A stretch of 64,000 nt of DNA from NCBI GenBank assembly GCA_019056595.1, contig CP036163.1:310001-374000 (forward strand), written 5' to 3'. Numbering within the stretch: the stretch's first letter is position 1; every line of letters begins with the position of its first letter. Made by a program: the position numbers and the translations under genes. This document shows, piece after piece, positions 6,791-60,793 of the stretch. This DNA is from Pectobacterium atrosepticum. Lineage in GTDB: Bacteria > Pseudomonadota > Gammaproteobacteria > Enterobacterales > Enterobacteriaceae. The notes beneath the pieces were generated by a model. It had not been told where the DNA came from. It was given only the letters and a program-made list of their open reading frames with translations, and did no database searches.

Positions 6791-6912
6791 AGTTGCATGT
6801 GCGTTGGCTGCGCTTAAATACTCGGCCCGTCGTGGGCCTCGCCCTGAAGGGCCGCTGCAAGCAGCGTTCAAATCTGCTCCCGGCAGATTTGTCACCCGAA
6901 TCACTTACCTGA
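6780..6912. repeat. Partial ERIC element with an insertion module
   Basis: The left ERIC end (catactt...gcgttggctg) begins inside the last codons of dadA. It is interrupted at about 6811-6892 by an 82-base hairpin-rich module nearly identical to one at 18810-18891, and resumes with the ERIC core (cacccgaatcacttacctga). The right half of the ERIC is missing. The element lies between the convergent dadA and MFS genes. Confidence 0.85.
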
Positions 6913-18687: not shown

Positions 18688-18778
18688 GGTGGTGTGAGTC
18701 AGGATTAAAAATCAAGTATAGAGGGAAAAACAGCCCAGCAATATCATCATAAGCAATGACTATTACCGGGCTATCCCC

Positions 18779-19116
18779 GTCATACTTCAAGTTGCTGGTG
18801 CGTTGGCTTCGCTTAAATACTCGGCCCATCGTGGGCCTCACCCTAAAGGGCCGCTGCTAGCAGCGTTCAAATCTGCTCCCGGCAGATTTGTCACCCCAGT
18901 CACTTACTTGAGTAAGCTCCTGGGGATTAATGAGCCTCATAAATGAGATTCACCCTTCGGGCCAGCGCTAGCGCTGTTCAAATCGGTATAAAACCGATTT
19001 GTCGCTCGGTTGCCGCGTTATTCGGCCTTATGGCCTCACCCCTTCAGGGTTAGCGCAAGCGCTGTTCAAAAACGGCTTGCCGTTTTTGTCCTGCAACTCG
19101 AATTATTTAGGGTACA
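18779..19116. repeat. ERIC element carrying three insertion modules
   Basis: Compared with the uninterrupted ERIC at 46110-46234, this copy keeps both ends and the core (agtcacttacttgagtaagc) but is split three times: at about 18810-18891, 18929-19002 and 19016-19089. Each insert contains four small hairpins and ends in GTTCAAA-hairpin-TTTGT. The element fills most of the 450-base gap between ansA and sppA. No gene is seen there. Confidence 0.88.
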
Positions 19117-19137
19117 TATGAACAGCCGATATAAATC

Positions 19138-20988
19138 TTACCGGACTTCTCCGCAGGTGAGACAAAATGCGTATCGGTTCTGCGGGTCGTTCAGGTTATT
19201 CATGATGGACGGCTGTGAACGCACAACTTCCGCCAACTGTGCGACCGGAGCTGGCAGCATAGACTGAACAGCAACGGGCAGCAGGGCGTAAACAGACGCG
19301 TTCACCTGATTCAACATTGTGTCGAGCAGACCCGGTTGTTCGGCATACCAGTTCAATTGATATTGTCCCAGTTTTGCCAGTTCAGCGGCCTTCTTCACGG
19401 CATCATCAAAATCACCGATCTGATCGACCAGACCATTTTCTTTCGCGTCGCTACCGACCCAGACGTGTCCTTGTGCGATCTCATTGATTTGCTCTGGCGT
19501 TTTCTTACGTGCCTGAGCCACGATATCGATGAAGTTCTTATAACCGCGTTCGATACTCAACTGCATCATCTGCGAGAATTCAGGTGGCAGCGATTTCGTG
19601 ATCGACAGATCGGCCAGCGGGGAGGTTGCAACGCCATCCGTGTGGACGCCAAGGCTTTCCAGCGAATCTTCGAACGTGGTAATCACGCCAAAAATACCGA
19701 TAGAGCCTGTTAACGTACTGGCGCTGGAGATGATTGCGTTCGCCGGCGTTGAGATCCAGTAGCCGCCTGATGCCGCCATGCCGCCCATGGATACCACGAT
19801 CGGTTTACCCGCCATACGGAGCGACATCAGTTCTGAGCGAATCAGTTCCGATGCCGTGACGCTACCGCCAGGGCTATTGACGCGCAGTACCAGCGCTTTG
19901 ACTTTAGGATCGAGGCGCGCGGCACGAATTTGTGCAGCTGTGGTATCACCACCGACCATTCCCGGCGTTTCCGGTCCGTCAATGATTGCACCATTGGCAA
20001 AGACAACCGCTATCTGGTTGTTATTTTGTACCGGCGGTTTGACGACATAGTCGTAGATGCTGATGGAATTAAAGTTGTTCTTCTGGTTATTCCAGCCGAA
20101 CGTTTTCACCAGCGATTGTTCGGTCACGGAACGTGATGCCACTTCATCGACCAGCTTGTTATCCAGCGCATAGCGTGCGGTGTCACCCTGAACGGCCTGC
20201 AAACCCGCAATAATGCTGGTTGCACCAGGGAAGAGCTGCTGAGGCGTAATCTGACGATTAGCGGAAACCGTATTTAAATACTGCTGCCACAGAGCGTTGA
20301 TCCAGCGGCCATCGGCATCGCGAGCAGCAGGTGACATGTCATCACGCAGATACGGCTCAACGGCTGATTTGTACGTTCCCACTCGGAAGATATTGGTGGT
20401 CACTTTCAGCTTGTCGAGCATGGATTTGAAGTAGAGGTTGTTGGTCGCAAAACCGTGCAGATCAACACTGCCTTGTGGCGTCAATGACACCGTATTGGCA
20501 AAACTGGCCAAATAGTATTGAGACTGGTTGTAGCTGTCACCAACGGCATAAATGGGTTTACCACTATCGCGAAATTCGCGCAGCGCCTTGCCAATATATT
20601 GCAGAGACGGCTGATCGGCACCGGTAAAATCGCTGAGGTCCAGTACCATTCCGGTAATATTGTCGTCGCCTTTTGCCTGACGAATGCTGTCGACGATATC
20701 AAACAGTGAGTTTTCCTGACGGCGGTTGCTCGATGCGCCAAAGAATTCACGCCCTAATTGACGCAGCTTATTATTGACGGTTGGTTGATCAACCACCACG
20801 CCCGTCAGATCGACCAGCAGAGCTCCCTTCGTGGCCGCTTCCGGCGTCGTTTTTACCTGTGAGTAGATCCCAACGCCAGCTAAAATCAGCGCGATAAGGA
20901 AAATATTGAGAATAAATTCTCTGATAAAATTAAGCAGACGCCATGTCCACTTAAAAAAGCCGCTAAAAATTCGCCACAATGTGCGCAT
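19138..20988 (-). CDS. sppA: Signal peptide peptidase A (protease IV)
   Basis: SppA digests cleaved signal peptides from the periplasmic face of the inner membrane. The 616-aa protein has one N-terminal membrane anchor near residues 24-43, two tandem S49 domains, and the Ser/Lys dyad expected at Lys207 (RVGTYKSAVEPYL) in the first domain and Ser407 (MAASGGYW) in the second. Length is close to E. coli SppA (618 aa). It is divergent from ydjA. Confidence 0.95.
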   Translation of the reverse strand: MRTLWRIFSGFFKWTWRLLNFIREFILNIFLIALILAGVGIYSQVKTTPEAATKGALLVDLTGVVVDQPTVNNKLRQLGREFFGASSNRRQENSLFDIVDSIRQAKGDDNITGMVLDLSDFTGADQPSLQYIGKALREFRDSGKPIYAVGDSYNQSQYYLASFANTVSLTPQGSVDLHGFATNNLYFKSMLDKLKVTTNIFRVGTYKSAVEPYLRDDMSPAARDADGRWINALWQQYLNTVSANRQITPQQLFPGATSIIAGLQAVQGDTARYALDNKLVDEVASRSVTEQSLVKTFGWNNQKNNFNSISIYDYVVKPPVQNNNQIAVVFANGAIIDGPETPGMVGGDTTAAQIRAARLDPKVKALVLRVNSPGGSVTASELIRSELMSLRMAGKPIVVSMGGMAASGGYWISTPANAIISSASTLTGSIGIFGVITTFEDSLESLGVHTDGVATSPLADLSITKSLPPEFSQMMQLSIERGYKNFIDIVAQARKKTPEQINEIAQGHVWVGSDAKENGLVDQIGDFDDAVKKAAELAKLGQYQLNWYAEQPGLLDTMLNQVNASVYALLPVAVQSMLPAPVAQLAEVVRSQPSIMNNLNDPQNRYAFCLTCGEVR

Positions 20989-25229: not shown

Positions 25230-25448
25230 CGCAGGAGAGAGGGCGTGTACTTCAGCATACTTCAAGCTACATGTACGTTGGCATAAAGTATAACGCTCCG
25301 CCGAAGGCGCAAACTCCCATAATCGCTCAGGCTACCCTAACTGCGAATTCCATTGAAGCCAACTGGAGAGAGGTTGCGATGCAACCCACCGAAGGGGCAA
25401 GCAGCTCTGCTGCGTAAACTCTCAGGTAAAGCGGACAGAGGGAGTGGC
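25230..25448 (+). ncRNA. Tandem glycine riboswitch
   Basis: Two gcvT-type aptamers lie in series. Aptamer 1 (about 25230-25345) has a P1 stem CGCAG/CTGCG, then GGAGAGAGG, the core CGCCGAAGGCGCAAACTCCC and the CTCAGG segment. Aptamer 2 (about 25358-25448) has GGAGAGAGG, ACCGAAGGGGCAA, AAACTCTCAGG and ACAGAGGG, closed by GCCAACT/AGTGGC. The GTG of the next gene follows 22 bases later, and CACA/TGTG pairing could cover its ribosome-binding site. No terminator is visible, so control may be translational (inference). Confidence 0.9.
25256..25281 (+). repeat. ERIC-end fragment in aptamer-1 loop
   Basis: These 26 bases, starting catacttcaag and ending tacgttgg, match the left end of the ERIC elements in this window at nearly every position. 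They fall in the loop closed by GCGTGTACTT (25243-25252) and AAGTATAACGC of the first glycine aptamer. Confidence 0.7.
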
Positions 25449-26143: not shown

Positions 26144-26160
26144 TGGTGGTGGGGGAAGGA
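26144..26160 (-). repeat. Repeat of the tRNA-Tyr 3' end
   Basis: Seventeen bases are identical to the 3'-terminal part of the tRNA-Tyr gene (26317-26333), 173 bases further along its transcript. The arrangement recalls the rtT repeats of the E. coli tyrT operon, which each contain the last 19 bases of the tRNA. Confidence 0.75.
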
Positions 26161-26229
26161 TAATTCGGCGCTTCGCACCTCACGCTGCGGGTCAACGCTA
26201 AGCGTTGCTCAAAACCGTACCGGTTTTGT
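26161..26229. repeat. Stand-alone insertion module, fifth copy
   Basis: This stretch has the same order of hairpins as the modules inside the ERIC elements, ending with AACGCT-AA-(A)GCGTT then GCTCAAAACCG-TAC-CGGTTTTGT. It lies within the spacer between the tRNA and its partial repeat and is not flanked by ERIC sequence. Confidence 0.6.
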
Positions 26230-26316
26230 CGAACCTTGGTCGAAGGTTCTCACCTTCCCCTGATGGGAATTTGATGCTTTGGTGTTGGGATGTAGTTCAG
26301 AAGTGTTGCTTTGAAA

Positions 26317-26401
<85 letters not shown>

Positions 26402-60664: not shown

Positions 60665-60692
60665 AATAAAAAGCCCGCTTAGTTAAGCGGGC
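60665..60692 (-). terminator. trp attenuator
   Basis: GCCCGCTT-AACT-AAGCGGGC followed by TTTTTATT on the minus strand is an intrinsic terminator 32 bases before trpE. It lies 39 bases after the leader-peptide stop and is the expected regulated 3:4 hairpin. Confidence 0.92.
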
Positions 60693-60730
60693 CTGGGAAT
60701 ATCTGCATGTGTGATAACAGCGATGCGTGA

Positions 60731-60793
60731 TTAGTCCACCCGCGAGAGGGAAGAGCGCCACCAACCATGCTTCATCATTTTCTGCGTTGCCAT
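60731..60793 (-). CDS. trpL: trp operon leader peptide
   Basis: A 20-aa leader peptide, MATQKMMKHGWWRSSLSRVD, has tandem Trp codons at positions 11-12 followed by Arg, the same GWWR core as E. coli TrpL (14 aa), with a longer C-terminus. Translation through WW would control formation of the attenuator at 60665-60692. The start is the ATG nine bases after GTGAG; two other in-frame ATGs lie just upstream. Confidence 0.9.
   Translation of the reverse strand: MATQKMMKHGWWRSSLSRVD

Follow-up and report, generated by a model that had tools for sequence, protein, structure and literature searches.

What is the short, hairpin-rich module that occurs five times in a 64,000-nucleotide stretch of Pectobacterium atrosepticum DNA (the window, i.e. 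the whole stretch that was analysed)? The initial annotation had placed it at 6811-6892, 18810-18891, 18929-19002, 19016-19089 and 26161-26229, and saw in it a candidate for a non-autonomous mobile element or an RNA module, with a possible link to ERIC insertions. All five copies are present as placed and the shared features agree with the sequence by eye: a common order of hairpins, GTTCAAA ahead of the final stem (GCTCAAA in the fifth module), final stems that differ yet stay paired (AATCTGC/GCAGATT, AATCGGT/ACCGATT, AAACGG/CCGTTT, AACCG/CGGTT) and closure on TTTGT (plus strand). ERIC elements are known to carry internal insertions of about 70 bp, and we take the ERIC-borne modules here to be, probably, just these insertions. 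The insert reportedly figures in the ERIC literature of Wilson and Sharp in 2006 and of De Gregorio in 2005. What the annotation did not contain is the identity of the fifth module, which forms the core of the RtT RNA in Rfam. To our minds the module is probably best explained, judging from sequence comparisons, as a mobile element that is non-autonomous, measures about 66-90 bp and consists of four consecutive hairpins with fixed linkers.

One module in five places

The natural reading direction of the module is the minus strand of the window, on which each copy follows the layout GA^(CAAA-hairpin 1)-AAC-(2)(3)-GAG-(4)-GTA^A. In the five-module alignment (minus strand) hairpin 1 runs from CAAA to TTTG, hairpin 3 from CCC to GGG, and hairpin 4 is followed by the tail GAGTA. 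A covariance model made from the five modules (R1) returned at E<=0.001 these modules and nothing else from the 64-kb window, a search that tells us just that a sixth copy did not turn up, since the five are also the training set. Modules 2-4 are three insertions within one ERIC element (Table 1).

Table 1. Positions of the modules and of their hosts in the window
Feature	Position	Strand	Matches and remarks
Module at ERIC site A (this ERIC truncated, by eye)	6819..6891	-	R1 match 6811-6893, 95.9 bits
ERIC element (host) with three modules; ends approximate	18772..19115	-	plain sister ERICs align to consensus
Module at ERIC site A (CAAATCTG...GAGTA)	18818..18890	-	R1 match 18810-18892, 95.0 bits; AaHKsRNA22 33.8 bits (below cut-off)
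Module at ERIC site C (CAAATCGG...CTCATTA), 74 bp	18928..19001	-	R1 match 18933-19003
Module at ERIC site B (CAAAAACGG...GAATA), 70 bp	19019..19088	-	R1 match 19011-19090
RtT (rtT) unit: inverted T-arm piece, T-arm, module, tRNA 3' end	26144..26273	-	RF00391, 96.6 bits
Module in T-loop of tRNA-Tyr 3' fragment, GGTTCGA^(module)^ATCC	26162..26228	-	R1 match 26159-26230
Intact tRNA-Tyr gene, upstream of RtT unit, same strand	26317..26401	-	ARAGORN, Rfam tRNA

Elsewhere in the window lie a glycine riboswitch aptamer (25353-25448, plus strand) and a tryptophan operon leader (60665-60769, minus strand).

Distribution in the genus and beyond

The covariance search for which the annotation had called was positive in the genus. 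With R1 at E<=1 the genome of the window gave at least 120 matches (150 of 615 candidates scored); 105 of these were chosen, leaving out 15 of lower rank, and 104 were extracted (292190 is missing). By flank rules that are rough and leave some further ERIC copies among the 'other' class, the 104 fall into ERIC site A (28), site B (26) and site C (11), tRNA T-arms (3), A/T-rich ends (12) and other (24). A second model (R2), made from an alignment (A2) of 106 own-genome matches with 104 distinct rows, found at least 31-148 matches per genome in each of the 25 genomes of the genus that were searched (E<=1e-4; 150 candidates scored in each). Further afield, R2 matched at least 85 of 229 genomes class-wide (E<=1e-5; that of the window included) and at least 45 of 200 phylum-wide, 31 of them in another class, both being lower bounds from overlapping samples with 20-23 candidates scored per genome. 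An exact 33-mer spanning T-arm and module start is present in 26 stretches of named genome records, carriers including Alteromonas flava, Neptunicella marina, Serratia rubidaea, a Methylococcaceae and several Chromatiales. As regards carriage by phages, an exact 28-mer core occurs in none of the IMG/VR contigs, divergent copies lying outside such a search.

For comparison across genera, 127 matches were realigned from 85 of 91 loci (L091-L181) in 48 genomes among the best class-wide hits, a high-scoring rather than random sample from which near-duplicate loci (L103-L105, L112, L113, L115) were left out. GA stands at the start of 111 of the 127 matches, and 16 have another start.

Several variants were seen on the way. 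Among the 104 own-genome copies, the 12 with A/T-rich ends (TAAAAAACG...CATAAAAAA; e.g. C2:187569, 2535057, 4206977) form a variant, and some of these 12 adjoin terminator-like sequences; at C2:296500, 742997 and 1384554 a shorter module variant lies within another shared repeat; and at L098:1207-1344 and L101:1501-1650 inverted modules are, by eye, nested within other modules.

Compensatory changes in the hairpins

With a hand-written structure, 90.7% of 107 cells in the five-module alignment are paired (77.3% after shuffling), 8 of 23 pairs have changed on both sides (shuffled mean 4.3) and none of 500 shuffles reached the covariation score, while, among the five measures used, that of further pair types did not go beyond chance (65 of 500 shuffles). 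The 104 distinct own-genome rows of A2 have both-sided changes in 21 of 22 pairs and 93.8% of cells paired, as against 72.1% when shuffled and 31-41% when slid, values to be read with the bias towards the structure that fitting to a covariance model gives the rows. Across genera (124 distinct rows from the 48 other genomes) both-sided changes extend to all 22 pairs, and 96.3% of cells are paired as against 72.5% (shuffled) and 29-47% (slid). Unguided RNAalifold recovered hairpins 1 and 2 and no others, so that hairpins 3 and 4 depend on the imposed structure.

Hence compensatory changes, whose statistics the annotation had proposed as a check, exceed both shuffled and slid controls. Its further claim, that they point to selection on the folded form, fares less well, as such selection is not separated from palindrome correction in DNA. 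Correction of quasi-palindromes during replication, rather than selection on the fold, would indeed be consistent with cross-genus rows in which both-sided changes (605 cells) greatly exceed one-sided ones and in which G-U makes up only 2.1% of pairs, with its lowest share (0.9%) in hairpin 1. We nonetheless consider it an unlikely source of the pattern: correction alone leaves unexplained why the unpaired linkers GA, AAC, GAG and GTA recur across genera, and own-genome copies have a G-U share of 4.8%. The latter is as frequent as in the 87 tRNAs of the cross-genus loci (4.1%) and would, together with the strong covariation, suit a module that is a functional RNA first (as a trailer of tRNA operons or an element of mRNA processing or stability), kept by selection on its RNA fold and spread only secondarily. 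Against this stands the low cross-genus share, above all in hairpin 1, as a weak sign of maintenance as DNA; taken together, the G-U percentages do not decide whether RNA or DNA is the maintained form.

Empty and filled sites at one ERIC element

The window locus (18770-19140), which carries ERIC with modules at sites A, B and C, was compared with 19 orthologous loci from 24 sister genomes with a match. ERIC is missing from four (L215, L228-L230), plain in five (L214, L217, L224, L226, L231) and internally deleted in four (L218, L219, L222, L223); ERIC with module A is found in one (L227), with A and B in two (L213, L220) and with A and C in one (L221), while L216 and L225 look like deletion products of a composite. 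Over the published ERIC/RU-1 consensus the five plain loci cover 127 of 127 letters with 104-106 identical and L227, holding one module, gives 108 of 127, whereas the window composite aligns poorly in a single pass because of its three inserts.

Ends were read from single-insertion fits (minus strand) of a filled against an emptier sister locus. At site B (L227 against L220) 71 bp are inserted at GTG(A)^AGG with 220 of 223 flank letters matching, and at site C (L227 against L221) 72 bp at ACG(A)^ATCC with 218 of 223; at both, target duplication is absent and the junction is ambiguous by 1 nt. Sites B and C thus fit clean 71-72-bp insertions at GA^A, as far as aligned sequences can tell. Mapping of empty and filled sites, as the annotation had suggested for defining the ends, therefore places them at GA^A for these two sites but not for site A, where the fit (72 bp, 142 of 151 flank letters) splits best at GAA^GCC. 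When the whole A+B+C composite was fitted as a single insertion on A+C, the fit failed (122 of 295), which we attribute to the window's site-A module belonging to another subfamily and lying at a slightly different position.

At this locus, conversion from another ERIC could leave the same picture as a fresh insertion. Each ERIC site holds, by eye, just a few module subfamilies, and within the genus many ERIC copies probably owe their spread to transposition of ERIC or to gene conversion and not to fresh insertion of the module.

Sense-oriented copies in tRNA loops

Module 5 sits in a tRNA 3' fragment downstream of a tRNA, an arrangement that modules 1-4, in ERIC, do not share. Its unit and two more places in the same genome exceed the 45 bits required of RtT, whereas ERIC modules 2-4 (18700-19200) are not listed by the RtT model at E up to 10. 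Comparable units at other tRNAs score 34-43 bits, under the cut-off of 45, in five of eight loci (L093, L095, L136, L142, L170), and those of L091, L117 and L121 do not reach E 0.01. One annotated E. coli RtT has the same layout with hairpin 1 altered, and matches R2 with 30.5 bits.

Across genera, the 5' strand of the T-arm (GGTTCGA^ATCC) precedes 63 of 127 copies in 35 of 48 genomes and antisense T-arm words (three complement words, left flank) precede no genuine case among the 127, a 63-to-0 count that covers left-flank words only, in high-scoring hits and with tandem copies included. Three complement-like left flanks are anticodon-loop copies of one tRNA-Ser array (L099; CTCGA^AA). A tRNA or tmRNA lies within the same locus for 73 of the 127 matches; at the score threshold used, 53 run on into a copy of that RNA, compared with a mean of 0.35 tRNA matches per run for shuffled tails. 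A control stretch 150 nt further right matched a tRNA in 16 of 70 cases, which probably arise from continuing arrays and tRNAs; at a stricter threshold there are 33 tRNA matches, 32 of them sense. Ser accounts for 19 of the 53, Gln for 16, Arg for 8, Pro and Tyr for 3 each, and tmRNA, Val, Glu and Thr for 1 each. Of the 53, 52 are on the strand of the tRNA. Two had come out antisense: at L098:1265 one module lies inverted within another, and L145 was judged an artefact, its left flank being a sense T-arm.

Downstream of the tRNA lie 41 of the 53 (35 of them at 34-113 nt), and in 32 of 51 sense matches exactly 19 nt of tRNA remain after the module, corresponding to GGTTCGA^ATCC. As the T-loop core TTCGAA is a palindrome, insertion in both directions would be expected were that word alone decisive. 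Many units have an extra inverted T-arm piece ahead of the T-arm, and in the copies at L116, L141 and L164, which lie in the D-loop of tRNA-Ser, the GA^A word is by eye preserved. Judging by overlapping matches at L286-L309, the number of tandem RtT units, each of about 194 bp, ranges from one to three among sister species.

Sense orientation next to tRNA genes is also what the above functional RNA would predict. One E. coli record labels RtT an sRNA processed from the tyrT transcript, and PMC7657543 mentions that RtT has a tandem GA motif, both in keeping with that option. Yet ERIC, RU-2/YPAL, further repeats and a protein gene all hold copies, which occur in both orientations, and 144 of 229 class-wide genomes have no match (detection being a lower bound), so we regard it as improbable that RNA function came first.

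Two further observations concern DNA next to such units. Judged by match positions, six sister genomes (G420, G430, G431, G433, G434, G440) have an additional 1-3.5 kb downstream of tyrT. At L121:814-6010 (G115) rtT-like units beside tRNA-Ser flank several kb with small genes that are, by eye, AbrB-like and toxin-antitoxin-like; this may be an island with the rtT-like unit as attachment copy.

Copies in other repeats and in a protein gene

RU-2-like flanks surround five own-genome modules of the 'other' class (C2:2794476, 2831115, 3142414, 864144, 3780042) and, in part, that at 2747232. At C2:2831115 RU-2 is continuous around the module, split between positions 78|79; two further 'other' copies tried against RU-2 scored weakly. 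In G122 (L102-L105) module copies lie in a repeat of about 252 bp with 94.9-96.4% identity, whose ends near AGCCCGGATATTGCACCAAGG appear inverted by eye. In G136 (L109:808-3204 and 2-1309; G136:C1:1267600-1271500) a BREX-3 pglZ gene (PADLOC E=1.6e-228) contains four in-frame stretches encoded by modules: one close to the N-terminus, two internal, of which one has 25 residues and the other comes from an antisense module, and one at the C-terminus; at the protein level these inserts are absent from two homologues. Beside it, a BrxA-similar open frame runs through three more modules, the overlap with a gene being judged by the open frame only. In GC-rich DNA the open frames near the 74 copies that lack a tRNA match are too ambiguous for sense and antisense insertions in genes to be told apart and counted.

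This range of hosts bears on the option that the module lacks mobility of its own, was captured a few times and is carried along when ERIC transposes, when tRNAs are duplicated and by gene conversion. The site-specific subfamilies in ERIC (by eye) and the rtT tandem arrays of varying number agree with such passive carriage. With one junction word in ERIC, RU-2, nine tRNA/tmRNA kinds, other repeats and a protein gene, however, many separate insertions would be needed in many hosts and families, and we find carriage as the whole explanation distinctly unlikely.

Candidates for the moving enzyme

Hairpins near both ends, an oriented target and the lack of a duplication are also traits of IS200/IS605- or RAYT-type elements moved by a Y1 HUH transposase, and the fixed target word without duplication is found here as GA^A at sites B and C, with GAA^GCC at site A. 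Across the 229 genomes Y1_Tnp is slightly commoner where modules are found (65 of 85 module-positive, 91 of 144 negative; p=0.04, weak), a comparison in which 'module absent' is uncertain, the scoring having covered just 20 candidates in each genome, with strict filters. On the other hand, 20 of 85 module-bearing genomes have no Y1_Tnp, the genome of the window itself has no Y1_Tnp match despite more than 100 copies, and in 30 loci around Y1 genes (of 40 listed, about 3 kb each) no module was found at E<=1. A Y1-moved element hence seems to us a rather poor prospect. RVT_1 (reverse transcriptase) showed no association in the same 229 genomes (30 of 85 against 54 of 144), with the same uncertainty about absence.

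Y1 transposase had been our first candidate mover and was set aside for want of a match in the window's genome, for the empty Y1 loci and for the weak co-occurrence.

Proposed mode of spread

Comparison of sequences gives a sequence-structure family across many Proteobacteria, presence/absence steps and a GA^A junction. Genus-wide matches, compensatory changes and empty and filled sites support the annotation's notion of a non-autonomous mobile element or RNA module linked to ERIC, and very probably we are dealing with a mobile insertion family that includes RtT. The module, which carries no gene, would insert between GA and A of its target without target duplication. It may be envisaged to move in folded, single-stranded form, as ssDNA or RNA, by means of an enzyme supplied in trans, a mode that we infer as quite possible and that would account for the hairpins, for the lack of a target duplication and for insertion into tRNA T-loops in one direction only. 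More tentatively, the unit that goes by the local names of rtT, ERIC inserts and AaHKsRNA22 could be a minimal bacterial mobile element, functionally analogous to a SINE, in which a folded strand of 70-90 nt inserts in sense at GA^A, within loops of tRNA copies and at other places across Proteobacteria, through an undescribed enzyme or pathway.

If true, this would give a single origin to repeats filed as sRNA, cis-regulatory RNA and ERIC insertions, and would account for rtT-like units after tRNA genes in many lineages. It would also raise the question of what inserts so short an element, devoid of genes, at one word and free of duplication. The sister-species series at one ERIC provides natural empty and filled sites, and the in-frame copies imply that the module can alter a protein, too.

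Comparison with known families

In the literature searched (most subscription journals being outside reach) we found no paper that unites rtT, the inserts of ERIC and the tRNA-loop units in a single family, nor a description of the module in the accessible parts of PMC2229807, PMC3733652, PMC10969869, PMC7657543 and PMC2759123. At Rfam gathering scores, 11 cross-genus loci gave no hit to the module. As for an exact match to a described family, which the annotation would have counted against its reading, there is one in part: a subset of copies is Rfam RtT (RF00391), and the ERIC-borne copies are probably the ERIC insertions of about 70 bp.

With REP, RAYT, REPIN and GTAG- or CGTC-tagged palindromes (PMC3733652) the module shares small size, palindromic build, lack of autonomy and high copy number, but it has four hairpins in about 75 bp, a GA^A target, by eye no GTAG/CGTC tag and, in the Y1 loci compared, no link to Y1/RAYT. 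Rickettsia palindromic elements (RPE) likewise insert in frame inside protein genes and are 105-146 bp long in Rickettsia (PMC2229807); they differ, by description and not by sequence, in being longer and Rickettsia-borne. A strict MITE, which has terminal inverted repeats and a target-site duplication, is not matched either, with module ends CAAA... and ...GTA and no target duplication at sites B and C. RU-2/YPAL (RU-2 sequence from PMC2759123) serves as another host, RU-2 itself being without the module.

AaHKsRNA22 (RF02902), although filed as an Aggregatibacter sRNA gene, has the same hairpin order. Its scores stay below the 39.8 bits required, with 33.8 (site-A module) and 24.4 bits in the window and 38.6 and 38.1 bits on L121; it is thus no member by cut-off, though probably homologous to the module. 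Of ERIC (IRU, RU-1) the internal sites are those occupied by window modules 1-4, with net inserts of 71-72 bp in sister loci, yet the insert constitutes a separate family that also occurs at ERIC-free sites. RtT, for its part, has the module as its core, with four hairpins set between GGTTCGA and ATCC of a tRNA-Tyr 3' fragment, whereas Rfam classes it as cis-regulatory RNA. A single mobile family appears to comprise RtT, the inserts within ERIC and, probably, AaHKsRNA22.
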